Shown here: piece after piece, positions 8,164 to 63,349 of the stretch
Layout: every line of letters starts with the position of its first letter
How positions within the stretch are numbered: the first letter of the stretch is position 1
Assembly (NCBI GenBank): GCA_947497265.1
Contig: CANMFP010000013.1
Span: 1 to 64,000 of the forward strand
Reading direction: 5' to 3'
DNA length: 64,000 nucleotides
From: an uncultured Isoptericola sp.
Lineage (GTDB): Bacteria; Actinomycetota; Actinomycetes; Actinomycetales; Cellulomonadaceae
The notes under the pieces: generated by a model
The model's database searches: none
Told to the model about the DNA's origin: nothing
Seen by the model: only the letters and a program-made list of their open reading frames with translations
Made by a program: the position numbers and the translations under genes

Positions 8164-9546
8164 CTATGCATGCCACTCGAATGCAATTGTCTCGAGGTCC
8201 ACGTACGGCTCTCCGGGCTTCCACCCGTGAGGGCGCCCCTTACGCCCCTTGTTGATCATGACGACGGCGAGCGCGTCGAGCACAGCGCGCTGCACGTCCA
8301 GCGGGGCGGTCAGGAACGCCTCTCCGGGGCTCGCAGCGCCCAGGACGCCCCCGAGTGCATCGCCGCGCATTGCGCTCGCCAGACGGGCGTTCACGCTCTC
8401 AAGGTCGCTCTCGACGCGCTCCGTCGCACCGCGGAGCTGACGACCGGAGATCGCACCCTCGGCATAGTCGGCCTCGAATGTCGACAGGCGGGCACGCAGA
8501 GATTCCTCCTCGGCCCGTAGGGACTCGATCAGCCCGTCGTCGGACTCCGCCAGCAGGTCGGCCGCATCAGGCTTGGAGAGGACGCCAGCGACTACCTGAC
8601 GCACGTACTCGTCAACGGCGTTCGCGTCTCGGGTGACATGGGAGCCCTCGGTGCAGCGGTAGGCGTGTCGGACCTTCTGCTTCGACGCCCGCAGCGGCCC
8701 GCCGCAGACACCGCAGCGATACAGCCCGGACCCGAGCCACCGTCGCTCCGGCCCCGTGGTAGTCGTGCGGGTTGGGTCGGATAACGTCGCTACGACTCCG
8801 CGCCAGATCTCCTCGGGGATGATCGCGGGCCACGACGCCGCGCCGACAATGTCGCCGCGCTCGTCGATGAGTCCGGCGTTGCGGGGTCGGAGCAGCATGG
8901 TTCGGAGGTTAATGCCGTCGATGCGGCTGCCACGTGTAGTGGTGATCCCCGCTTCGTTGAGTTCGCGAGCGAGCGCGTTCAGCGATCGGCCCGCAAGGAT
9001 GCCGCGTGCGGCGCGGAGCAGCGCATCGGCCTCTGGCGGGCGAACGGTCACGCCGTCGGCCTCGTAGCCGAACGGGCGCGGTCCTCCACGCCACTTCCCC
9101 GCAGCGGCAGCCTGACGCTTGGCGCGCTGCATCCGCTCGCGCGCATGGTCGATCTCGTGCTGTGATGCCGCCCCGAGCATCCGGGCCACCATGCGGCCGG
9201 ATGCCGTCGTGAGGTCCACAGAGCCCGAGCGGACGGTCTGCACAGCGATCTTGTGCTCGTCACAGATGGAGACGAACTCCTCAAGCTCCGCGACCTTGCG
9301 GTGGAGTCGGTCAGAGTGCCAGGCGACGACAGCCGTGGCGCGCCCCTGGCGCAGATCCTCGAGCATGGCGCGATATCCGGGCCTAGGCTTCCCCGAGTAC
9401 GCCGAAAGGTCGTTGTCGGAGTGGACGGCGACCACGTTCCAGCCCAGACGGTCCGCAAGTTCGCGACAGTCGGCTTCCTGGCGGTCGACGCCCAGGCCGG
9501 CGCCCTCGCGGTCCCGGCTGATCCGTACGTAGACGACAGCTTCCAT
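8164..9546 (-). CDS. Large serine recombinase (integrase)
   Basis: 460 aa from ATG 9546 (MEAVVYVRISRD); a GTG at 9558 is an alternative start. The N-terminal resolvase domain carries catalytic Ser10 in YVRIS, the VVAWHSDRLHR arginine motif near 74-84, and the long E-helix (GRMVARMLGAASQHEIDHAR). The recombinase domain spans ~150-255, a zinc ribbon (C278, C281, C298 and nearby ligands) follows, then a coiled coil (~341-395) that controls synapsis and directionality. This is the complete large serine integrase architecture. The gene lies at the extreme end of the element, its start 15 bp from the end of the comM homology, so the attachment site is immediately upstream of the start codon. It catalyses attP x attB integration, and an RDF would be needed for excision. 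Confidence 0.93.
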   Translation of the reverse strand: MEAVVYVRISRDREGAGLGVDRQEADCRELADRLGWNVVAVHSDNDLSAYSGKPRPGYRAMLEDLRQGRATAVVAWHSDRLHRKVAELEEFVSICDEHKIAVQTVRSGSVDLTTASGRMVARMLGAASQHEIDHARERMQRAKRQAAAAGKWRGGPRPFGYEADGVTVRPPEADALLRAARGILAGRSLNALARELNEAGITTTRGSRIDGINLRTMLLRPRNAGLIDERGDIVGAASWPAIIPEEIWRGVVATLSDPTRTTTTGPERRWLGSGLYRCGVCGGPLRASKQKVRHAYRCTEGSHVTRDANAVDEYVRQVVAGVLSKPDAADLLAESDDGLIESLRAEEESLRARLSTFEADYAEGAISGRQLRGATERVESDLESVNARLASAMRGDALGGVLGAASPGEAFLTAPLDVQRAVLDALAVVMINKGRKGRPHGWKPGEPYVDLETIAFEWHA

Positions 9547-11445: not shown

Positions 11446-12254
11446 GGCTCTGGCACCTCGGAGAAGACGTCGCCGGGGTTGCGCAGCATGCGGGCGTCGT
11501 TGAACGGCCAGACGACCACGAACGCGGAACCCACCACGTTGTCCATCGGCACGAACCCGCCACCGGGCTTGCCGGTGTTGAACCGCGAGTCCTGCGAGTT
11601 CGGCCGGTTGTCGCCCATGACGAAGACCATGTCGTCCGGGACCACCGTCTCGAACTCGGTGCTGCTCGGTTCCACCCCGGGGGCGATGTACTCGGTCTCG
11701 TCGATCGCCACCCCGTTGACGCTGACGCGACCCTCCGCGTCGCAGCACACGACCGTGTCGCCGGGCGTGCCGACGACCCGCTTGATGAGGTGCTCACCCG
11801 TGTCCTGCGGCAGCAGCCCGACGAACGTCGCCGCGTCCCGCACCGCGTTGCCCACCGGGCCGCGGTCCGGTGCCTCGTACGGCGGGAGCCAGCCGCCCGG
11901 GTCCTTGAAGACCACGATGTCTCCACGGTTGACGTCCAGAGCGTCGGGCACGAGCCGGGAGACCATCACGCGGTCGCCGACCTGCAGGGTCTCCTCCATC
12001 GAGGAGCTCGGGATGTAGAAGGCCTGGACCAGGAACGTCTTGATCAACCAGGACAGGACCAGGGCGCTGACGATGATGATCGCCGTCTCGCGCAGCAGGC
12101 TCATCCCTCCGCCCGACCGGGCCGGGCGGGCGGCCGCGTGGGCGGGAACCGTCCCGTATCGCGTGGCGTCGTTCCCGTCGACGGCATCGGGGTCCGGCAT
12201 GCCTTCGGGCTCGGGTCGGCGCTCTGCGGAGGTCACAGGGTCGGAGTCTGCCAC
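11442..12254 (-). CDS. lepB: Signal peptidase I
   Basis: 270 aa from GTG 12254 (a GTG two codons upstream is equally possible). Farther upstream ATG codons lie inside the rplS terminator hairpin and are unlikely starts. After a ~50-residue acidic cytoplasmic tail comes one TM helix ([20 protein letters not shown]). The catalytic Ser is in [17 protein letters not shown] and the general-base Lys in [14 protein letters not shown]. Box E is [14 protein letters not shown]. It removes signal peptides of exported proteins at the outer face of the membrane. Linkage with rplS and rnhB is the standard actinobacterial order. Confidence 0.95.
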
Positions 12255-12295
12255 GTCCACACCTTGCCAGAAGCAACATCGCAGCGCGAAACGCC

Positions 12296-12330
12296 GACGG
12301 GCGGCCCCTCCGCTGGAGGGACCGCCCGTC
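12296..12330 (-). terminator. Terminator downstream of rplS
   Basis: A long interrupted stem-loop (GACGGGCGG paired with CCGCCCGTC, inner arms CCCTCC / GGAGGG, 3-nt loop, one bulged A) lies 33 bp after the rplS stop and before lepB. It should end the rpsP-trmD-rplS transcript. The lack of a T-run is normal in high-GC actinobacteria. Confidence 0.75.
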
Positions 12331-12362
12331 GGGACGCTCGGCGGGAGACCTCCCGCCACGGC

Positions 12363-12719
12363 TCACTTGGCCGGGGTAGCGCGCTTCTCGCGGATCTTGG
12401 CCTTCTTGCCGCGCAGCGAGCGCAGGTAGTAGAGCTTCGCGCGGCGGACGTCACCGCGGGTGACGACCTCGACCGAGTCGACGGTCGGGGCGTGCACCGG
12501 GAAGGTGCGCTCCACACCGACGCCGAAGCTGATCTTGCGGACGGTGAAGGTCGAGCCCACGCCGCTGTTGCGGCGGGCGATGACCACGCCCTGGAAGGCC
12601 TGGACACGAGAGCGGCTGCCCTCGACGACCTTCACGTTGACCTTGACGGTGTCTCCGGCACGGAAGTCCGGGATGTCGTCGCGCATCGCTGCCGCGTCGA
12701 CGTTGTCGAGCGTCTTCAT
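12363..12719 (-). CDS. rplS: 50S ribosomal protein L19
   Basis: 118 aa from ATG 12719 behind GGGGAG; the longer upstream frame is non-coding leader. The sequence [60 protein letters not shown] and the C-terminal [17 protein letters not shown] is textbook L19. It sits at the 30S-50S interface (bridge B8). It is the last gene of the rpsP-khpA-rimM-trmD-rplS locus, separated from trmD by 141 bp that contain two tandem hairpins. Confidence 0.97.
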
Positions 12720-12745
12720 GGTTGTCTCCCCACCCTGCCACAGGT

Positions 12746-12778
12746 CAGAGCAAGCTCTGGGCCCGCACACGGCGGGCC
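12746..12778 (-). promoter_or_regulatory. Two tandem hairpins in the trmD-rplS leader
   Basis: In the transcript direction a 7-bp hairpin (GGCCCGC/GCGGGCC, 5-nt loop, 12778-12760) is followed directly by a 6-bp hairpin (CAGAGC TT GCTCTG, 12759-12746). After ~17 nt comes the rplS SD. The first could terminate trmD transcripts; the pair could also be an L19-binding autoregulatory leader. Only the structures are seen; the function is open. Confidence 0.45.
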
Positions 12779-12860
12779 GAAGTCTTGTCCGAGGTGGTGC
12801 ACCGTCCTCGGCCCGATGGTCTCCCCTGTGGCAGAGTTCGGGCTGCGGCACACCAGCGAC

Positions 12861-13742
12861 CTATTCTGCCACACGCTCCAGCCGTGGACCCGGTCGAGGA
12901 GCGTCCGGAGTCTCGTGAGACGCGCCACGTGGTTCCCCGGCCGGCACGACACGCCACCCGAGACCGGCGAGGACCGTGCGGTCGTGCGCGTCGAGCAGGG
13001 CGGGGTCGAGCGCGGCCACCATGTCCGGTCGACGCGCGGCGGTCCGCTCGAGGGCTCGGTCACGGCGCCACCGGTCGATGCGGGCGTGGTGGCCGGAGAG
13101 CAGCACCTCCGGCACCTCGCGACCGTCCCACGTCGGCGGCTTCGTGTAGACGGGGTATTCCAGGAGGCCTGCCGCGCCGTGGGACTCCTCGACCAGCGAG
13201 TGCGGGTTCCCGACGACACCGGGCAGCAGCCTGCCCACTGCCTCGACCATGACGAGGGCCGCGACCTCTCCCCCGTTGAGCACGTAGTCGCCGATCGACA
13301 GCTCGCTGACCCGGTGCCCAGCGGCCCGGTAGCGCTCCGCCACCCGGGCGTCGATGCCCTCGTAGCGCCCGCACGCCACCACCAGCTGGTCCTCCGTCGC
13401 CAGCTCCTCGGCGCGCCGCTGCGTGAACACGTCCCCCGACGGCGTCGGCACGACCAGGTGCGCGCCGCGCGCCGCGGCGTCGGCGCCGGTGTCCGTCCTG
13501 GCGCCCGCGGACGGGTCGGGCAGGAGGTCGTCCAGCGCACGACCCCACACGTCAGGCCGCATGACCATCCCCGCTCCCCCACCGAAGGGCGTGTCGTCCA
13601 CGGTGCGGTGTCGGTCGGTGGTCCAGTCCCGCAGGTCGTGGACACGCAGGTCGAGCAGTCCCGCCCGGCGGGCCTTGCCGACGAGCGACAGGTCGAGCGC
13701 GGCGAGGTAGTCGGGGAAGATCGTGACGACGTCGATCCGCAC
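12861..13742 (-). CDS. trmD: tRNA (guanine-N1)-methyltransferase
   Basis: 293 aa from GTG 13742, one base after the rimM stop. It methylates G37 of tRNAs with SAM and prevents frameshifting. The SPOUT trefoil-knot motifs are present: [13 protein letters not shown] at the start, [13 protein letters not shown], then [33 protein letters not shown] and [10 protein letters not shown] with [20 protein letters not shown]. The last ~30 residues after [10 protein letters not shown] are a variable Pro/Arg-rich extension. It is translationally coupled to rimM. Confidence 0.96.
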
Positions 13743-13743
13743 G

Positions 13744-14307
13744 TCAGGCCTCGTCCTCGTCGGGCGCCTCGGCCGCGTCCGCACGGTCGACGACGACGGC
13801 GCCCGCGTCGCGGGCCAGCAGCCCGCCCGGAGGGGTCAGCCCGACACGGCCACCGGGCACGTCGACCACCGGCACGATCGCGTGCACGAACGGCACGAGG
13901 GTGCGCTCGCCGCCGGTCTCACGCAGCACCAGGGCGTCGTGCGCGGGCAGATGCTCGAGACCGACGACCTCGCCCACGACGGTGCCGTCGGCCAGCTCGG
14001 CCCGCAGACCGGTCAGCTCGTGCGGGTACCAGGCGTCCTCCTCGTCCGACTCCGCGGACTCGACCACGAGCTCGACGCCGCGCAGGCCCTCCGCCGTGCT
14101 GCGGTCGGACGACTCGGCGAACTGGACGAGCCAGCGGCCCTGGTGCACGCGCGTCGCGGCGATCGTGAGCGGTCCGGCCTCGGGCGGGACCGTCTGGAGC
14201 ACCGCACCCGTCGCGAACCGCTCCTCCGGGACGTCGGTCCGGACGTCGAGCGCCACCTCGCCCCGCAGGCCGTGCGCCTTGCCGATGCGAGCCACCACCA
14301 GCTCCAT
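13744..14307 (-). CDS. rimM: Ribosome maturation factor RimM
   Basis: 187 aa. The N-terminal RimM domain starts [20 protein letters not shown] (the G-K-x-H-G-x-x-G-E signature). The PRC-barrel half follows from [20 protein letters not shown] and contains [16 protein letters not shown]. The acidic tail [12 protein letters not shown] is species-specific. RimM binds S19 and assists 30S head assembly. The gene follows khpA after a 105-bp gap with a strong 18-bp hairpin, and trmD starts one base after its stop. Confidence 0.95.
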
Positions 14308-54894: not shown

Positions 54895-54921
54895 CGTCCA
54901 CCCTCGCCCTTGATACGCGCC

Positions 54922-54950
54922 GGGTGACGACGGCGTGACACCTGCGTGAC
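54922..54950. promoter_or_regulatory. Three 11-bp-spaced heptamer repeats, candidate SARP operator
   Basis: GGGTGAC (54922-54928), GCGTGAC (54933-54939) and GCGTGAC (54944-54950) share the phase of exactly 11 bp, about one helical turn. SARP regulators typically bind direct heptamer repeats with 11-bp periodicity near the -35 region. The repeats are 15 bp upstream of the first tail-operon gene. In the other direction a TATCAA-like hexamer (54915-54910) lies 6 bp from the repeats, so the site could also act on the SARP gene itself. Confidence 0.6.
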
Positions 54951-54964
54951 GCCGTCGGCCCAGC

Positions 54965-55630
54965 ATGGCGGGCATGAGCAGCTTTCCGGGCAACCCGCGG
55001 GTCCTGCCGGGCGCCGTCGTCGCCGTCGACCCTGTGAGCCCGCTCGCCCGCATCGTGGTCTTCCAGTACAACCCGGACGAGGTGACACGCCAGATCCGGC
55101 CGCGGACCCCGCCGTCCGGCGCGGGCGGCGGATCGGACGCCCAACGCATCTGGGGCGCACCGACGGAGTCCATCTCGATGACCCTCGAGCTCGACGCGAC
55201 GGACGGCATGGAGGCCTCCGACCCCGTCGCGACCACCGCCGGGGTCGCACCGCAGCTCGCTGCCCTCGAGATGCTGCTGCACCCCAGCGCCGCGTCGGTG
55301 GCGATCAACACGGGGCTGCTGGCGGCCGGCACCATCGAGGTGCTGCCCCCGCAGGGACCGCTGACGGTGCTCGTCTGGGGCCCGGGCCGGGTGGTACCGG
55401 TGACCGTCGAGAGCCTTTCGGTGCGGGAGCAGGCGTTCAACCAGGTCCTCGCGCCGATCCGCGCGAGCGTCGACGTCGCGCTGAGCACCCTGACGTACGA
55501 CGACCTGTCCCCCACGAACCCCGGGTTCGCCCTGTACGTGGCGCACCACGTCGCCGCCGAGGCCCTCGCCTCGGTCGCGGGAGTCACGGGCGCGGTCGGT
55601 GCGGGCGTCGAGCTGTCGGTGGGAGGCTGA
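54965..55630 (+). CDS. CIS tube-associated protein (Afp7/Pvc7-like)
   Basis: 221 aa from ATG 54965 (an ATG three codons later is possible). The segment VDPVSPLARIVVFQYNPDEV, TRQIRPRTPPSGAGGGSDAQ, ESISMTLELDATDGMEASDP matches the conserved N-terminal domain of the contractile-injection-system tube/baseplate protein Afp7/Pvc7, with F-Q-Y-N-P-[DE] as hallmark. In other systems this domain is fused to a LysM module; here LysM is the next gene. It should connect the inner tube to the baseplate. First gene of the operon, downstream of the SARP repeats. Confidence 0.8.
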   Translation: MAGMSSFPGNPRVLPGAVVAVDPVSPLARIVVFQYNPDEVTRQIRPRTPPSGAGGGSDAQRIWGAPTESISMTLELDATDGMEASDPVATTAGVAPQLAALEMLLHPSAASVAINTGLLAAGTIEVLPPQGPLTVLVWGPGRVVPVTVESLSVREQAFNQVLAPIRASVDVALSTLTYDDLSPTNPGFALYVAHHVAAEALASVAGVTGAVGAGVELSVGG

Positions 55631-55631
55631 G

Positions 55632-55949
55632 ATGTCCCGCTACGACGACGTCGAGACCGCCACCCTCGAGGTGGTCGCCGCGGACGGCACCCGTCGCAGC
55701 GTGCGCTACCACCGCCGTCGGAGCCTGCCGCCCCCGGCCGGAGACGTCGGCGACGGCGCGCCCGCGCCACGCCACACCGTCGTGCCCGGCGACCGGCTCG
55801 ACCTCCTGAGCTACCGGTTCACCGGTGACCCGCTGGGGTTCTGGCGCCTGTGCGACGCCAACGCGGCGCTGGACCCCGACGAGCTCGTCGACGCCGAGGC
55901 CGTCGGCACCGAGATCGTCGTGCCACAGCCGGGGGTGGGGGGACCATGA
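55632..55949 (+). CDS. LysM-domain protein (CIS baseplate)
   Basis: 105 aa from ATG 55632, 2 nt after the previous stop. It contains one LysM motif: RHTVVPGDRLDLLSYRFTGD, PLGFWRLCDANAALDPDELV. LysM here is probably structural, as in Afp7/gp53 homologues, and need not bind peptidoglycan. The split of tube protein and LysM into two genes is notable. Its stop overlaps the ATG of the hub gene (ATGA). Confidence 0.82.
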   Translation: MSRYDDVETATLEVVAADGTRRSVRYHRRRSLPPPAGDVGDGAPAPRHTVVPGDRLDLLSYRFTGDPLGFWRLCDANAALDPDELVDAEAVGTEIVVPQPGVGGP

Positions 55950-57088
55950 CGCTGCTGGGTGTGCACCTGACCGTGCTGGCGGGGCGGACCGTACCGGTCC
56001 CGCTGCCGCCCGACGTCACGTCCCGCGTGCGTGGCGTGACGGTCACGGAGTCGGACGCCGGCCGCTCGGCGTTCACGGTCACGCTCGACGCGGGACGCAG
56101 CGGCCCGACGGCGGCCCTCGACACGTCGCTGCTCACGTCCTCGCCGCTGCGGGCCAACGCGCGGGTCGTGGTGATGCTCACCGTGGGCGCCGTCCCGGTG
56201 GTGCTCGCGGACGGGATCGTCACCGAGACGGCGCTGACGCCCGGCAGCGCCGACACCGCTGCCGAGCTGCAGGTCACGGGCCACGACCTGTCCCTGCTGC
56301 TCGACCGGCACGAGGCCCCCACCGAGCACGTGGGCCTCGACGACATGCTGCAGGTGCTCAAGATCGCGGCACCGTACCTGCCGCAGGGCGTGGTGCCGCA
56401 GGTCGTCCCGCCGCCCGCCCTCGACCCGCCGCTGCCCATCGAGCGGATCCCCACCCAGCAGGGCACGGACTGGGAGCACCTGGAGATGCTCGCGCACTAC
56501 CACGGGTACGTGGTCGCCATGGTCCCCGGCCCCGCACCCGGCACGAGCACCCTGTACTGGGGCCCGCCCGTCCGCGCCGGGGCGCCTCAGCCCGCCCTGT
56601 CGGTCGACCTCGGGCCGGACACGAACGTCACCGGCTCGCCGCGGTTCCGCGAGGACGCGCTGGGCCCCGAGCTGGTCGAGGGGCAGGTCCAGGACCCGCG
56701 GCTCGGCGCCGTGGTGCCGGTGCGCACCGTGGGTTCGCTGCGCCCGCCGCTGGCCGCCCTGCCGGTGTGGGCCGTGCAGCAGCCCGACGTGCGCACGCGG
56801 CAGTACCGCGACTCGGGCGTGCCCGCGACGACGGCGCTCGCCAGGGCCCAGGGGATCACGGACTCCAGCATCGACTGCGTCGAGGCGACCGGCACGCTCG
56901 ACGGCGGTGCGTACGGCTCGGTCCTGCGGCCCCGCGGGCTGGTGGGGATGCGCGGCGCCGGATGGTCGCACGACGGCCTGTGGTACGTGCGCAAGGTGCA
57001 GCACCGCGTGGCGCGCGGCAGCTACACGGCCGACTTCACGCTGGTCCGCGAGGGCTACGGATCGACCGTCCCCGTGGTGCGGGTCTGA
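55946..57088 (+). CDS. Tail hub protein, phage gpD/VgrG N-terminal-like (Afp8-like)
   Basis: 380 aa from ATG 55946. The late-control-gene-D fold is suggested by VVMLTVGAVPVVLADGIVTE, ELQVTGHDLSLLLDRHEAPT, and IPTQQGTDWEHLEMLAHYHG followed by a second barrel-like region (FREDALGPELVEGQVQDPRL). The C-terminus WSHDGLWYVRKVQHRVARGS, YTADFTLVREGYGSTVPVVR is typical of gp27/gpD-type hubs. It forms the trimeric hub on which the spike sits; the spike module is the next gene, so the VgrG-like protein is split. Confidence 0.8.
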   Translation: MTLLGVHLTVLAGRTVPVPLPPDVTSRVRGVTVTESDAGRSAFTVTLDAGRSGPTAALDTSLLTSSPLRANARVVVMLTVGAVPVVLADGIVTETALTPGSADTAAELQVTGHDLSLLLDRHEAPTEHVGLDDMLQVLKIAAPYLPQGVVPQVVPPPALDPPLPIERIPTQQGTDWEHLEMLAHYHGYVVAMVPGPAPGTSTLYWGPPVRAGAPQPALSVDLGPDTNVTGSPRFREDALGPELVEGQVQDPRLGAVVPVRTVGSLRPPLAALPVWAVQQPDVRTRQYRDSGVPATTALARAQGITDSSIDCVEATGTLDGGAYGSVLRPRGLVGMRGAGWSHDGLWYVRKVQHRVARGSYTADFTLVREGYGSTVPVVRV

Positions 57089-57098
57089 GGAGGCAGCG

Positions 57099-57593
57099 GT
57101 GAAGTTCTACGGCAAGTACCGGGGAACGGTCGAGAACAACCTCGACCCGCTGCAGCTGGGCCGCGTCCAGGTGGCGTGCCCGGCGGTGCTCGGCACCGGC
57201 AGCCTGAGCTGGGCCATGCCGTGCACCCCGTACGCGGGCGACGGCGTCGGGCTGTTCCTGGTACCACCGGTGGGCGCGAACGTGTGGGTGGAGTTCGAGG
57301 GCGGCGACGCGGCGCTGCCCATCCTCGGCGGCTGCTTCTGGGGCACCGGGCAGGTGCCTGCCGCGCCGGCCGTGGCCGAGACCAAGGTGCTCAAGACGGA
57401 GCACGTGACGATCGAGGCCAGCGACCTGCCGGGCGGTGGCGGCCTGACGCTGGCGGCCGAACCTCCGGCGGTCACCCTCCCTGTCGAGATCACGGCGACG
57501 AGCTCCGGCGTGGAGATCAGCACGGGTGCGGCCTCGGTGAGCGTCACGAAGACGTCGGTGTCGCTGAACCAGGGCGCCCTGGAGGTGACGTGA
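57099..57593 (+). CDS. Spike protein, gp5/VgrG OB-fold-like
   Basis: 164 aa from GTG 57099 behind GAGGAGG. The gp5-type OB fold is visible: VKFYGKYRGTVENNLDPLQL, GRVQVACPAVLGTGSLSWAM, PVGANVWVEFEGGDAALPIL, GGCFWGTGQVP. A short beta-helix-like tail with alternating hydrophobic residues follows (GVEISTGAASVSVTKTSVSL). Together with the hub protein it forms the membrane-piercing tip. Its stop overlaps the start of the PAAR-like gene (TGATG). Confidence 0.85.
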   Translation: MKFYGKYRGTVENNLDPLQLGRVQVACPAVLGTGSLSWAMPCTPYAGDGVGLFLVPPVGANVWVEFEGGDAALPILGGCFWGTGQVPAAPAVAETKVLKTEHVTIEASDLPGGGGLTLAAEPPAVTLPVEITATSSGVEISTGAASVSVTKTSVSLNQGALEVT

Positions 57594-57910
57594 TGCCGGG
57601 CCTGCTGCTCACCACGACGGCCAAGGTGGCGTGCGCCCACCAGGGTGCGGCCAGCCCGTCGGCCGGGGCGCCGCGCGTCAGCCTCGGCGGAGTGCCGGCG
57701 GTGCTCCAGACCGCTCCGTACACGGTGGCGGGCTGTGCCGCACCGCCGCAGACCGGCGGTCCCGACGCCACCGGGACGTGGACCACGGGCACCACCCGGG
57801 TGACGGCGAACGGCGTGCCGCTCGCCGTCCTCACCTCCACCGGCACCTGCGCACCCACCGGGGTGCCGATGCAGGCGCAGTCGACCCAGACCCGGGTGCG
57901 TGCGACATGA
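57593..57910 (+). CDS. PAAR-like tip protein
   Basis: 105 aa from ATG 57593. It starts MPGLLLTTTAKVACAHQGAA and continues with three further Cys-containing segments (VAGCAAPP, TGTCAPTG), a small Cys/Gly-rich beta fold like the DUF4280/PAAR-type caps at spike tips in contractile systems. The C-terminal ~25 residues are flexible. It should sharpen the spike and may carry effectors. The assignment rests on Cys pattern plus position between spike and gp25. Confidence 0.7.
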   Translation: MPGLLLTTTAKVACAHQGAASPSAGAPRVSLGGVPAVLQTAPYTVAGCAAPPQTGGPDATGTWTTGTTRVTANGVPLAVLTSTGTCAPTGVPMQAQSTQTRVRAT

Positions 57911-58329
57911 GCCCGTCCGCACCACCTCCGTCGCCGCGCCGGGTCCGGGCGGCACGGCACGTCGCGTTCCCGCTCCGCATGGACGCCGGGGGCCGTACCG
58001 ACGTCGTCGACGACGAGGCGTACCTCAGCGGGCTCGTCGAGCAGGTCCTGTTCACCGCGCCCGGCGAGCGCGTCAACCGGCCGGACTTCGGCAGCGGCGT
58101 CGGGCGGCTCGTCTTCGCCCCGTCCGACGACGCTCTGGCGTCGTCCACGCAGGCTCTCGTGCAAGGTGCTCTGCAGCGGTGGCTCGGCGACCTGATCCGC
58201 GTCGAGGAGGTCCACGTCACGTCCGTCGATGCTCGACTCGAGGTGCTCGTGACCTACCTGCCGTTGTACGCCACCGGCCCCGAGCAGTCCCGCACGCTGT
58301 CGGTCGGCGGCCCGGCGGGTACGCCGTGA
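57907..58329 (+). CDS. Baseplate wedge protein, GPW/gp25 family (Afp9-like)
   Basis: 140 aa from ATG 57907, overlapping the previous stop (ATGA). The gp25 signature EAYLSGLVEQVLFTAPGERV, NRPDFGSGVGRLVFAPSDDA and a C-terminal strand pair (IRVEEVHVTSVDARLEVLVT) are clear. gp25-like proteins join baseplate wedges to sheath initiation. The N-terminus is Pro/Arg-rich. Its TGA overlaps the GTG of the next gene. Confidence 0.88.
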   Translation: MSPSAPPPSPRRVRAARHVAFPLRMDAGGRTDVVDDEAYLSGLVEQVLFTAPGERVNRPDFGSGVGRLVFAPSDDALASSTQALVQGALQRWLGDLIRVEEVHVTSVDARLEVLVTYLPLYATGPEQSRTLSVGGPAGTP

Positions 58330-60890
58330 GCGCCGTGACGTTCGCACCCACGTTCTCGGCCGCCATCGACCGGGAGGCGCGGCGTGCCCTCGTCCGCGGG
58401 CGCGCCGACCTGGACGGCGTCGACTTCGTCCAGGTGCTCTCGAACCATGACGGCAGCCCGGGCCACGTCGCGGGCGCACCCGCCCAGCGCACGCTGCTGG
58501 TCCACCTGCTCAACGGCCCCGTCCCGGGCGGGTGGGACGCGGCGACGGTGGGCGTGGCAGGGGGCGTGCGCGAGGACCCGGACCTCAACCCGGTCGGCGT
58601 CGTCTGGGCGTACGGAGCCGTGGCCGTCGCCGGGACCGCGACGACGCCGCCCACGGAGCCCCTCGACGGTGTGACCGACGCCGACAGGAGCCTCGTGGAG
58701 CAGACCCTCGCCGACGACGACGTCCGCGAGCGTGCCCTCGTGGTGCGGACCGACTCCTCCGGCGACCTGTCCACGTACACGCTGCGGCTGCTGGGCGCCG
58801 GCGGCGCAGGGGTGCCCGACGGCGTCGACCCGGCCCTGGCCACCGCGTCGTTCCGGTTCGGCGTCGACTGTCCCTCGGACCTCGACTGCCAGGTGCCCGC
58901 CGTGCCGCTCCCCCCGGTCGAGGCCCTGGCGCCCGGCGACTACCTCGCGCGGGACTACGAGGCGCTCCGCACGCGCCTGCTCGACCGGCTCGCCGCGCTG
59001 ATGCCCGGATGGAGCGATCGCAGCCCGGCCGACCCGGCCGTCATGGTCGCCGAGCTCTACGCCGCGGTGGGCGACCGGCTGGCCTACTGGCAGGACGCGA
59101 TCGCGGCCGAGGCCTACCTCGGCACGGCCCGCCGGCGGGCCTCGGTCCGCCGGCACGCCCGGCTCCTGGCCTATGCGGTGCACGAGGGCTGCTCGGCCCG
59201 CACCCTGCTGGCCCTGACCACCGATACCGCCCTCGATCTGCCTGCCGGCACCCCGGTGGCCGACGTTCCCTCCGGGGCTGCCGGACCGGCCGCCCCACCC
59301 GGCAGCGTCGAGCCCACCACACCGGTCGAGGCGTCGGACGCGGGCCGGCTCGTGTTCGAGACGTCCACCGCCCTGCGGATCTCCCCGGCTCGCAACGCCC
59401 TCGACCTGTACGCCTGGGGTGACGTGGACCACGACCTGCCGGCGGGGACCACGGCGGCGTTCGTGCGCACCCCCGCGGGGATCGACCCGGTGCTGCGTGC
59501 CGGTGACCTGCTGGTCCTCGCCGAGGTCCCCGTCGGGGGCGAGGCGCGCCTCGGTGACCCGGCCCTCCGGTTCCCGGTGCGCCTCGTGGCCGACGCCCGT
59601 CAGCACACCGACCCGCTGGACCCGGCCGGCACCGTGTGGGAGGTCCGCTGGCACCCTGCCGACGCCCTGCCGGCGCCGCTGCCGGTGTCCGAGCCCGGGA
59701 CGTCGGAGGCCCGCGCGGTGGCTCTGGCGAACGTCGTGGTCGCCGACCACGGGGCGACGGTGCGGGACGAGGCCCTCGTGCCGCCGAGCGTGCCCCCCGG
59801 CATCGACTACCGGCCGCGTCTGCAACGTCCCACGCTGTCCCGCGTCGATCCCGCGATCGACCCGTCGGCACCGGCGGCCTCCCTCCTCGCTCCCGACCCA
59901 CGGCGCGCGGCCGCCTCGCTCCTGCTCGACGACGGGCTGCGCACCTGGCTGCCGCGGCCCGACCTGCTCGGCAGCGACCGGCTGGCCACCCACCTGGTGG
60001 CCGAGCCCGAGCCGGGCGGGGTGACCCGGCTGCGGTTCGGCACCGGCAGGCAGGGGCGCCGCCCCGCGGTCGGGACGAGTCCCCTGGCCACGTACCGGGT
60101 CGGTACGGGGACCACCGGCGACGTCGGCCCTGACCGGTTGGTGCGGCTGCTGGTGCGCCCCGACGGTTCCGATCCCGTCGGCGGGGCCGGCGTGCAGGTC
60201 TGGAACCCGGTCGCGGCATCCGGGGGCCGGGAGCCCGAGCCTCTGAAGCAGGTGCGTCAGCTCGCCCCGGCGGCGCTGCGCACCCAGCACCGGGCGGTCA
60301 CCTCGCAGGACTACGCCCGGGTCGCGGAACAGCACCCCGGGACCCAGCGGGCGGTGGCCCGACGGCGGTGGACGGGGTCGTGGTACGCGCAGGCGGTCAC
60401 GCTCGACCCGGTGGCGGCGCGCGACGACGACCCGGTGCTGCGCGCCGAGGTGCTGGCCGCGCTCGAGGTGCGGCGCATGGCCGGGGTGGACGTGACGCTC
60501 GAGCGGCGCCTGCACGTGCCGCTGGAGATCGTCGTGGGTGGCTGCGTCGAGCCCGGCTACCTGCCCGGTGACGTCGTGGCACGGCTGCGCGAGGTCTTCT
60601 CGGCGAGCCGGCGCCCGGACGGCGGCCACGGGTTCTTCCACCCGGACCGATTCACGTTCGGGCAGTCGCTGCCGGCGTCGGACGTGGTGGCGGCCGCGAT
60701 GGCGGTCGACGGCGTGGCCTGGGTGGAGCTGCGCCGGTTCGCGCGTGCCGCGGCGTCGCGAGCAGAAGCGGCGCAGAGCCTGCGGACGGCGGAGATCGTC
60801 ATGGCGCCGCGCGAGCTGCTGCGCTGCGACTCGGACGCGAACCGGCCGGAGGCGGGCCACATCGAGTTCGCGCTGGGAGGCAGGCCGTGA
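58326..60890 (+). CDS. Large baseplate J-like protein (putative baseplate assembly protein, Afp11-like)
   Basis: 854 aa from GTG 58326. Residues 1-190 are an Ig-like/unique region; DYLARDYEALRTRLLDRLAA, DPAVMVAELYAAVGDRLAYW and QDAIAAEAYLGTARRRASVR are hallmarks of the TIGR02243 baseplate-assembly family. The C-terminal half includes QHRAVTSQDYARVAEQHPGT, the J-domain segment. Proteins of this family form the wedge arms. The last ~60 residues (FFHPDRFTFGQSLPASDVVA) match the second J-like gene's end. Confidence 0.85.
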   Translation: MSAVTFAPTFSAAIDREARRALVRGRADLDGVDFVQVLSNHDGSPGHVAGAPAQRTLLVHLLNGPVPGGWDAATVGVAGGVREDPDLNPVGVVWAYGAVAVAGTATTPPTEPLDGVTDADRSLVEQTLADDDVRERALVVRTDSSGDLSTYTLRLLGAGGAGVPDGVDPALATASFRFGVDCPSDLDCQVPAVPLPPVEALAPGDYLARDYEALRTRLLDRLAALMPGWSDRSPADPAVMVAELYAAVGDRLAYWQDAIAAEAYLGTARRRASVRRHARLLAYAVHEGCSARTLLALTTDTALDLPAGTPVADVPSGAAGPAAPPGSVEPTTPVEASDAGRLVFETSTALRISPARNALDLYAWGDVDHDLPAGTTAAFVRTPAGIDPVLRAGDLLVLAEVPVGGEARLGDPALRFPVRLVADARQHTDPLDPAGTVWEVRWHPADALPAPLPVSEPGTSEARAVALANVVVADHGATVRDEALVPPSVPPGIDYRPRLQRPTLSRVDPAIDPSAPAASLLAPDPRRAAASLLLDDGLRTWLPRPDLLGSDRLATHLVAEPEPGGVTRLRFGTGRQGRRPAVGTSPLATYRVGTGTTGDVGPDRLVRLLVRPDGSDPVGGAGVQVWNPVAASGGREPEPLKQVRQLAPAALRTQHRAVTSQDYARVAEQHPGTQRAVARRRWTGSWYAQAVTLDPVAARDDDPVLRAEVLAALEVRRMAGVDVTLERRLHVPLEIVVGGCVEPGYLPGDVVARLREVFSASRRPDGGHGFFHPDRFTFGQSLPASDVVAAAMAVDGVAWVELRRFARAAASRAEAAQSLRTAEIVMAPRELLRCDSDANRPEAGHIEFALGGRP

Positions 60891-63349
60891 GCGCCGACGA
60901 CGTGCCCTACGAGCCGTACAACCCGCCCGGTCAGAGCGAGCTCGCCTGGCGGGTGTCCCCGCACGGCGCGACGCTGGAGCGGCTGCGCGCCGCCCTGGCG
61001 GACGGCGACCACCTGCCGCCGGTGCGTTCGCTCGCGACCCGCAGCGCCCGCGATCCCGCGGTCGCGCTGCTCGACGCGTGGGCGGTGGTGACCGACGTCG
61101 TCTCGTTCTACACCGAGCGCGTCGCGACGGAGGGCCTCCTGCGCACCGCGACGGAGCAGCTCTCGGTGCGCGCTCTGGCCCGCACCCTGGGATACGAGCT
61201 GCGCCCGGGCGTCGCGGCGCAGGTCGAGCTCGCGCTGGAGGCCGAGACGGCCCCGGGCGCGCCGGCGTCCGTCGTGGTCCCCGCGGGTACGCCCGTGCAG
61301 ACGGTGCCCGCCCCCGAGTCGCTCCCCCAGGTCTTCGAGACCACGGGTGAGGTCGTCGCGCGGGGGGTGTGGAACACGCTGGCGGTGCACGACCGCGTCC
61401 CCCAGACGCTGGGCTTCGGCACCGTCGACGTGTGGCTGACCACGACGACGTCGGGCGTGGCCCTCGGTGACCGCCTGCTGGTGGTGGGAGCGGAACGGCG
61501 TGCGGTCTCCCCGGGCGACCCGCACTCCGCCGACCACGAGCGGTGGGACTTCCGGAAGGTCACCGCGGTGGACGTCGCCCCGCCGGAGGCACCGGGCTGG
61601 ACCCGGTTGCAGCTGGACCGTCCGATCGGCTACCGCAGGGCGCGTCCGCTCGTCGCCCGGGAGGACGTGCGGGTCTACCGCCTGGCGACCCGGTCGTCGC
61701 TGTTCGGGTGGAACGCCCCGGACCCCGGGCTCCTCCAGGGCCGGCAGGACGGCTGGGACGACTACGATCTGCCCGCGGGCGGCCGGGAGCTCGAGATCGA
61801 CGGGGACGCGGCCGCCATCTCCCCCGGCTCGTGGATGGTGCTGGAGCAACCCGGCCGCACGGAGTCGTACCGGGTCACCGACGTCGTGCCCGACGGCGCG
61901 ACGAAGTTCGCGCTGTCGGGCCGGCTCACGCGCGTCACGGTGGACACGCCGGAGGGCCTGGCCGCCTTCCGACGGAACAGCGTGCTGGTGCACGCGGTCA
62001 GCACGGAGCTGCCCGCAGCATGGATGCCGCGTCCCGACGCGGTGGGGGCCGGCGACCCCGGCACCGGGCACACGCTGGAGCTGACGGCCACCGACCCTCC
62101 GCTGGACCCCGAGCGGCTCGTGCTGGTGGCGGGCACCACCACGGCGGGCGACGAGCAGGTCGAGGCGACCACCGTCGTCGCGGTCGACCAGGTGAGCACG
62201 CCGCCCGGCGGCGGTGGAGCCCCGGGGCAGGTGGTCCAGCGCGTCACGCTCGAGCCGCCGCTGCGCCACGACTACCTCCCGGGCACGGTGCGCGTGCACG
62301 GCAACGTGGCGCACGCGACGCACGGCGAGACCGTGGACCAGGTGCTGGGCTCGGGCGACGGGCGCGCCGAGTTCGCCTCGTTCCTGCTGCGCCGCCCCCA
62401 CCTGACGTACGTCCGCACGACGACGAACGCGACCGGGGCGGCGGCCGCGCTCGAGGTCCGGGTCGAGGGTGTCGCGTGGACCGAGGTCGGGTCCTTGCAC
62501 GACGCCGGACCCACCGACCAGGTGTACGTGGTGCGCCAGGACGACGACGGCCTGTCCACGGTGACCTTCGGCGACGGGACCCACGGCGCACGGCTGCCCA
62601 CCGGCACCGAGAACGTGCGCGCCGTCTACCGGGTCGGGATCGGCGCCGACGGCGCGGCGGAGCCCGGGCAGGTGTCGCTACCGGTGCGCAAGCCACGAGG
62701 GATCGCGCGGGTGCGCAACCTGGCGCCCTCCCGCGACTGGGCACCGCCCGAGGACCTCGAGTCGGCCAGGGCGAACGCGCCGCAACGGGTGCGCACGCTC
62801 GACCGGGTGGTGTCGGTGGACGACTACGCGGACTTCGCCCGCACCTACTCCGGCGTCGGCCGGGCCCGGGCGGACCTGGTGTGGGACGGCCGCCGCGAGA
62901 CGGTCGTGGTCTCGGTGCTCGCCGCCGACGGCGGACCGGCGTCCGGCTCCCTGCTGGCCGACCTGGCGGCGACGATCGGTGCCGCCCGTGACGTGCGCGC
63001 CCCGCACGTGGTGCTCCCCGGCGAGGTGCTCGACGTCGGGGCACGGCTGAGCGTCCAGGCCCACCCGCGTCACGAGCCCGAGACGGTGCGCGACGCCGTC
63101 CGGTCGGCCCTGCTGACAGAGTTCGGTGATCTCCCGCTCGCCACGCCCGTGGCGGCGTCGCAGGTGCTCGTGACCGCCGCGGCCGTCGACGGGGTCGTCG
63201 CCGCCACCGTGCCGCAGCTGGTCGCGCTCGGTGCCACCGCCGTCGGTGACGACCTGCTGGTCGCCGCCGCCGCCCGATGGGCCCGGGACGCCCTGCTGGC
63301 CGCTCAGGCCCTGCGGCTGACGGCGCTCGACGTGGAGGTGACCTCATGA
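60887..63349 (+). CDS. Second large baseplate J-like protein (TIGR02243-like)
   Basis: 820 aa from GTG 60887, overlapping the previous stop. Motifs: PAVALLDAWAVVTDVVSFYT, ERVATEGLLRTATEQLSVRA, LARTLGYELRPGVAAQVELA (TIGR02243 N-terminal region), then VTFGDGTHGARLPTGTENVR, AVYRVGIGADGAAEPGQVSL and RVVSVDDYADFARTYSGVGR, the J core. Two J-type proteins side by side fit Afp11/Afp12-like wedge components of extracellular contractile injection systems. Its stop overlaps the next ATG (ATGA). Confidence 0.87.
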   Translation: MSADDVPYEPYNPPGQSELAWRVSPHGATLERLRAALADGDHLPPVRSLATRSARDPAVALLDAWAVVTDVVSFYTERVATEGLLRTATEQLSVRALARTLGYELRPGVAAQVELALEAETAPGAPASVVVPAGTPVQTVPAPESLPQVFETTGEVVARGVWNTLAVHDRVPQTLGFGTVDVWLTTTTSGVALGDRLLVVGAERRAVSPGDPHSADHERWDFRKVTAVDVAPPEAPGWTRLQLDRPIGYRRARPLVAREDVRVYRLATRSSLFGWNAPDPGLLQGRQDGWDDYDLPAGGRELEIDGDAAAISPGSWMVLEQPGRTESYRVTDVVPDGATKFALSGRLTRVTVDTPEGLAAFRRNSVLVHAVSTELPAAWMPRPDAVGAGDPGTGHTLELTATDPPLDPERLVLVAGTTTAGDEQVEATTVVAVDQVSTPPGGGGAPGQVVQRVTLEPPLRHDYLPGTVRVHGNVAHATHGETVDQVLGSGDGRAEFASFLLRRPHLTYVRTTTNATGAAAALEVRVEGVAWTEVGSLHDAGPTDQVYVVRQDDDGLSTVTFGDGTHGARLPTGTENVRAVYRVGIGADGAAEPGQVSLPVRKPRGIARVRNLAPSRDWAPPEDLESARANAPQRVRTLDRVVSVDDYADFARTYSGVGRARADLVWDGRRETVVVSVLAADGGPASGSLLADLAATIGAARDVRAPHVVLPGEVLDVGARLSVQAHPRHEPETVRDAVRSALLTEFGDLPLATPVAASQVLVTAAAVDGVVAATVPQLVALGATAVGDDLLVAAAARWARDALLAAQALRLTALDVEVTS

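Follow-up and report, generated by a model that had tools for sequence, protein, structure and literature searches.

We believe that the contractile injection system (CIS) encoded at this locus is under the control of a single dedicated regulator, a small SARP that very probably binds a short array of direct repeats and activates both arms of the CIS cluster. The array lies in the window (the whole stretch of DNA analysed here, 64,000 nucleotides), between the divergent SARP gene and the tail operon, in a region that reads, schematically, ccGGTGACgacggCGTGACacctgCGTGACgccgtcggccCAGCATggcgggcATGAGCAGC. A first-pass annotation had reported three copies of a motif 11 bp apart in this position, between a SARP/BTAD gene and the tail operon, and the sequence is as it described: GGTGAC at 54923, CGTGAC at 54934 and CGTGAC at 54945 all lie on the plus strand, in steps of exactly 11 bp, or one turn of the helix. 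Two details are corrected here, in that the [GC]GTGAC motif is a hexamer, not a heptamer, and the first base of the site is 54923 rather than 54922. The elements of the regulatory region are as follows.

54814-54092, minus strand: small SARP activator gene, 240 aa, predicted winged helix plus BTAD (Pfam BTAD, 4e-15)
54912..54916, no strand assigned: GATAC block (GATAY conserved, 7/7 close orthologues)
54923..54951, plus strand: proposed SARP operator, direct repeats GGTGACG/CGTGACA/CGTGACG (uniqueness; 10/10 close orthologues)
54961..54966, plus strand: -10-like hexamer CAGCAT, beginning 16 bp after the last repeat begins (nAnnnT in 19/20 promoters)
54974..54976, plus strand: conserved start codon of the first baseplate-operon gene, at the predicted +1 (position 29, counting the start of the last repeat as 0)

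Two repeat arrays at the heads of converging operons

The genes downstream of the repeats, together with those on the contig beyond the window, place PF04984, PF06841, PF14065, PF00004, PF04965 and PF04865 in one cluster, and judged from these genes the locus is an eCIS-type contractile injection system. The baseplate operon runs on the plus strand from 54974 to about 70400, the contig beyond the window included, and a second operon on the minus strand converges on it, encoding sheath (PF04984), tube (PF06841), a Pvc16-like protein (PF14065) and an AAA ATPase (PF00004). A search of phage records with the first tail protein gave no match.

54974..55630, plus strand: CIS_tube-like gene that opens the baseplate operon (PF19266, E-value 3.8e-5, slightly below the curated cut-off; orthologues)
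55632..63349, plus strand: remaining in-window baseplate operon, order and strand as in the relative G030
start of 55632..63349, plus strand: small gene, assigned from a weak tail-X-like match
from 55946, plus strand: hub-like protein gene, assigned from weak matches or gene order
from about 57099, plus strand: spike-like protein gene, assigned from weak matches or gene order
within 55632..63349, plus strand: gp25-like protein gene (PF04965)
within 55632..63349, plus strand: two long baseplate protein genes, one with a baseplate-J match (PF04865)
78443-76896, minus strand: sheath gene (PF04984)

Within the 64-kb window the triplet is matched with zero mismatches at the 54923 site only, and in its [GC]GTGAC form the zero-mismatch triplet has no second match among the assembly's 3,765,509 bases. 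The more general pattern GTGAC-N6-GTGAC-N6-GTGAC occurs twice in the 3.77-Mb genome, whether 0 or 1 mismatch is allowed, and a reversed control pattern has no match anywhere in it. The second copy lies outside the window, 23.5 kb away on the minus strand at C13:78529-78503, with the start of the sheath gene some 60-90 bp downstream. The two copies thus stand one at the head of each arm, baseplate and sheath, of a single cluster whose arms converge.

Conservation and promoter geometry

Conservation in orthologous loci was the check that the first-pass annotation itself had put forward, and the site passes it. The search for tube-like orthologues covered 221 genomes at family level, 396 at order level and 396 at phylum level. 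Immediately ahead of the start codon, all ten orthologues of at least 60% identity, our own included (G000, G525, G030, G468, G498, G449, G469, G046, G192 and G066), have GTGAC boxes, two or three in number and in 11-bp steps; distant orthologues, of 45% identity or less, have no boxes directly before the tube-like gene. When seven of the intergenic regions are aligned, the boxes stand out from poorly conserved flanks, and across relatives the last repeat has the heptamer consensus [CG]GTGACG. In the eight closest clusters the sheath promoters likewise all carry two or three boxes (TTGAC being the last box in three of them), as do those of G192 and G066.

The boxes are joined to a promoter of fixed design. 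Counting from the start of the last repeat as position 0, a G at 6, an A at 17 and a T at 21 are invariant in 19 of 20 CIS promoters, and in the twentieth, the G030 baseplate promoter, the same A and T are shifted one base downstream. In a -10 element the A at the second place and the T at the sixth are the bases that matter most. In 19 of the 20, 9 bp separate the 7-bp repeat from the hexamer, or 8 bp if eight contacted bases are counted, and measured start to start the distance from repeat to -10 is 16 bp, against about 17 in afsS. Published work on SARPs places 11-bp repeats close to the -10 element (PMC10936776), and the CIS promoters have this form; the spacing expected of SARP target promoters is 11 or 22 bp between direct repeats and roughly 8 bp between the 3' repeat and the -10. 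Their -10 hexamers are without the consensus first T, so these promoters would be weak in the absence of an activator, a feature that fits activation without proving it. Activation, as opposed to repression, is also what the SARP family and the position of the site suggest.

In the afsS promoter the downstream repeat covers -29 to -19 (PMC10936776), which predicts a transcription start at position 29 in the CIS promoters. The start codons of the baseplate operons fall at positions 28-30 from the last repeat, and none of the nine baseplate operon starts examined has a Shine-Dalgarno-like sequence. Because the start codon falls at the transcription start expected from the AfsR structure, the baseplate mRNA is probably leaderless. 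The sheath mRNA, by contrast, would carry a leader with a strong Shine-Dalgarno sequence, and GGAG-type sequences are present in 8/8 sheath leaders. An in-frame upstream ATG at 54965 was rejected as the start of the baseplate operon; it is not conserved, and it overlaps the -10 element.

These additional bases matter for recognition of the site in other genomes. Across the family the bare [GC]GTGAC triplet is matched in 35 of 220 genomes, many of the matches having no SARP or CIS connection and some being tandem arrays, and since so many are unrelated the bare triplet is not diagnostic between genomes; combined with the in-phase G and the -10 it is. The full module (three boxes plus the G, A and T) occurs five times in the 396 genomes of the order, namely at both of our own sites, at the G046 baseplate promoter and at one site each in G017 and G002, all of them at a CIS operon or adjoining a SARP homologue, and the reversed control of the full module occurs in none of the 396.

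The SARP as the probable ligand of the repeats

In the window, as in six relatives, the SARP gene points away from the baseplate operon; a six-frame search finds the gene's product to be the only BTAD protein in the genome. Searched against the sequences of solved structures, the protein has AfsR as its sole match (1.9e-7). A predicted model, built from four sequences and of moderate confidence (mean pLDDT 73), has a winged helix followed by a helical domain, and its only fold matches with E below 0.001 are AfsR (8hvr/8k60) and EmbR. Pfam gave no separate winged-helix match, and neither Pfam nor the model indicates any domain, sensor domain included, beyond winged helix and BTAD. By this modelled domain layout the protein is a SARP of the small type, which sets it apart from AfsR itself, which is of the large type and has NOD and TPR domains in addition. 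AfsR residues T88 and R92 are reported to contact bases (PMC10936776), and the T and R of the LRTSLWR segment of our SARP align with them.

The GATAC block is a further conserved element in this intergenic region. In seven relatives (our own and L060-L065) GATAC or GATAT lies 12-52 bp upstream of the repeats, at a variable distance; it is perhaps part of the SARP gene's own promoter (a -10 region, GTATC on the minus strand), or perhaps the site of another regulator.

A link between boxes and regulator is indicated by their distribution in 30 loci with homologues of the window SARP. Paired or longer GTGAC boxes number 23 within 1.5 kb of a SARP-homologue gene (113 kb), 7 of the 23 being the site in the window together with its direct orthologues, versus 1 in the other 389 kb of the same loci. 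A paired or longer box lies within 1.5 kb in 19 of the 30 loci, and an exact paired box is absent from that distance in 11. Eighteen control pentamers show no such clustering, save two that overlap GTGAC itself, and the clustering of the boxes persists where the CIS does not adjoin the SARP.

Several alternatives might be raised at this point. The published GlnR box of S. venezuelae is GTnAC-n6-GTnAC (PMC10704036), and the repeats literally fit this 5+6+5 layout, such that binding by GlnR, the nitrogen regulator and a winged-helix protein of the OmpR type, would couple the CIS to nitrogen state. We nonetheless consider GlnR an improbable binder, because the distribution of the boxes in the 30 loci follows SARP genes: had these been GlnR boxes, they should not have been tied to SARP homologues amid neighbours as unrelated as polyketide, protease and CIS genes. 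GlnR regulons have many members, yet the triplet is confined to two sites in the genome, and there is no GAAAC b-site of the kind typical of S. coelicolor GlnR. The layout agrees with GlnR, but the distribution does not. It is slightly less probable again that the SARP binds the site mainly to autoregulate its own divergent gene, with the tail operon controlled by other means. In G065 and L002 a paired box with an in-phase -10 does stand upstream of the SARP gene; in the window and related loci, however, the boxes and the -10 face the tail operon at a fixed distance, and the second copy, which precedes the sheath operon, is remote from the SARP gene.

Least credible of all is a product of chance, or of mutational short tandem duplication, with no regulatory role. 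Simple GTGAC tandem arrays do occur in GC-rich genomes (G457 and G023, for example), but about 0.03 exact triplets are expected per genome under an order-2 Markov model derived from the 94-kb contig, against the two seen, both at CIS operon heads. Moreover, the bases of the spacers between the three repeats differ from one another, and the boxes are kept across relatives while the remaining intergenic sequence is not, which together rule out simple tandem duplication.

Overall, the SARP-style control of the CIS that the first-pass annotation had suggested is well supported by the sequence, through the uniqueness, conservation and promoter geometry of the site and its tracking of SARP genes, with binding by the regulator as a prediction. 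The general pathway for SARP-mediated activation can be outlined. SARP protomers would sit next to one another at the GTGACG boxes, all on the same face of the DNA, and the bound SARP would cover the region where a -35 is missing and bring in the housekeeping RNA polymerase, which would then be placed on the weak -10 (CAGCAT) at a fixed spacing. Since the sheath operon has the same operator in front of it, one dedicated activator would switch on both converging arms together, yielding a leaderless baseplate mRNA with its +1 at the start codon and a sheath mRNA with a leader and a strong Shine-Dalgarno sequence.

What is not supported is the idea that this control would tie the machine to developmental, secondary-metabolism-like signals. 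The SARP is without a sensor domain, and its gene contains no TTA (bldA) codon, an absence that rules against a bldA-dependent developmental link. The connection to secondary metabolism is instead one of descent and operator, as seen in a SARP 44% identical to the window's that lies inside a type II polyketide cluster (G781, L180:2478-7887), one with two ketosynthase-like genes and cyclases, and is flanked on both sides by paired GTGAC boxes.

Known regulators and related loci

The window SARP resembles AfsR, ActII-ORF4, DnrI and RedD in being a cluster-situated winged helix plus BTAD protein, and the arrangement of its proposed operator resembles that of AfsR and the small SARPs, with 11-bp direct repeats over the -35 region that end near a poor -10 (PMC10936776, PMC10972967). 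It differs from the antibiotic SARPs in its repeat (GTGACG), its target (a CIS) and its probable leaderless start. BTAD is among the recurrent eCIS-associated domains, and GerE/BTAD genes have been proposed as eCIS regulators, in passages of Geller et al. (2021, PMC8213781) that concern the same domain in the same kind of locus; those passages do not give the operator, promoter structure or regulon, whereas here an operator and a two-promoter regulon are specified. In Streptomyces the CIS regulator SlpR/SCO4263 is described as LuxR-type, with a TTA codon and bldA dependence (PMC8505568). It too is a cluster-specific regulator, needed for CIS particles (PMC8505568, PMC10286715), in contrast to which the window regulator is a SARP with no TTA codon.

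Among the open-licence papers surveyed, no title or abstract reports a SARP operator in a CIS locus, and we therefore regard the present case as a known activator type and operator logic on a new kind of target. The proposed operator and its two-promoter regulon appear in none of the papers found; the occurrence of BTAD genes near eCIS loci had already been reported. To our knowledge, little is known of the control of actinobacterial injection machines outside Streptomyces, and the locus now provides a specific candidate activator, its operator and a two-promoter regulon, all open to test. The module also offers a DNA signature for finding further genes of the SARP regulon in other genomes, and removing or expressing the SARP would be a way to probe what the injection machine does. 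In this context, a regulator class regarded as antibiotic-specific appears to work on a protein nanomachine.

The tree of SARPs is poorly resolved, requires six changes of CIS label and does not place the CIS-linked members all together, so it neither shows one CIS clade nor dates the association. With no single CIS clade in the tree, a single origin of the CIS-linked SARPs was set aside, and repeated gain or loss of the SARP-CIS link is likely. A bolder reading, one we advance tentatively and would not yet back over its alternatives, is that the GTGAC-box/SARP pair may be a portable control cassette. Its targets would then include antibiotic synthesis (G781), CIS in several lineages at different operon heads, an astacin/LegP-like protease gene (G017) and a VanY-like, peptidoglycan-hydrolase-like gene (G002). 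In the CIS the cassette would drive one leaderless and one leadered promoter, and such a pair could set the ratio of baseplate to sheath.

The two full-module sites away from CIS operons deserve description in their own right. In G017 (L039:7920-9056) there is a SARP homologue with no CIS nearby, and a three-box module with a TAGCGT hexamer precedes a gene for an astacin-like metalloprotease, whose score marginally exceeds the LegP cut-off of NCBIfam; the GTG start of this gene is at position 30, the predicted transcription start. In G002 (L037:10815-11890) the full module precedes a VanY/peptidoglycan-binding protein gene, the adjoining SARP is 64% identical to the window's, and a second paired box lies at 9462 on the minus strand. 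Other boxes are found in CIS loci of different structure. In G019 and G470 (L182:793 and L117:18474) a GTGAC triplet precedes the first gene of a differently arranged CIS cluster, with nAnnnT not at the usual spacing and a SARP homologue on the same contig at a distance of about 30 kb. In G670 a paired box at L177:11794 precedes a plus-strand gene (11836-13989) that is divergent from the sheath gene and may encode a CIS-associated product.
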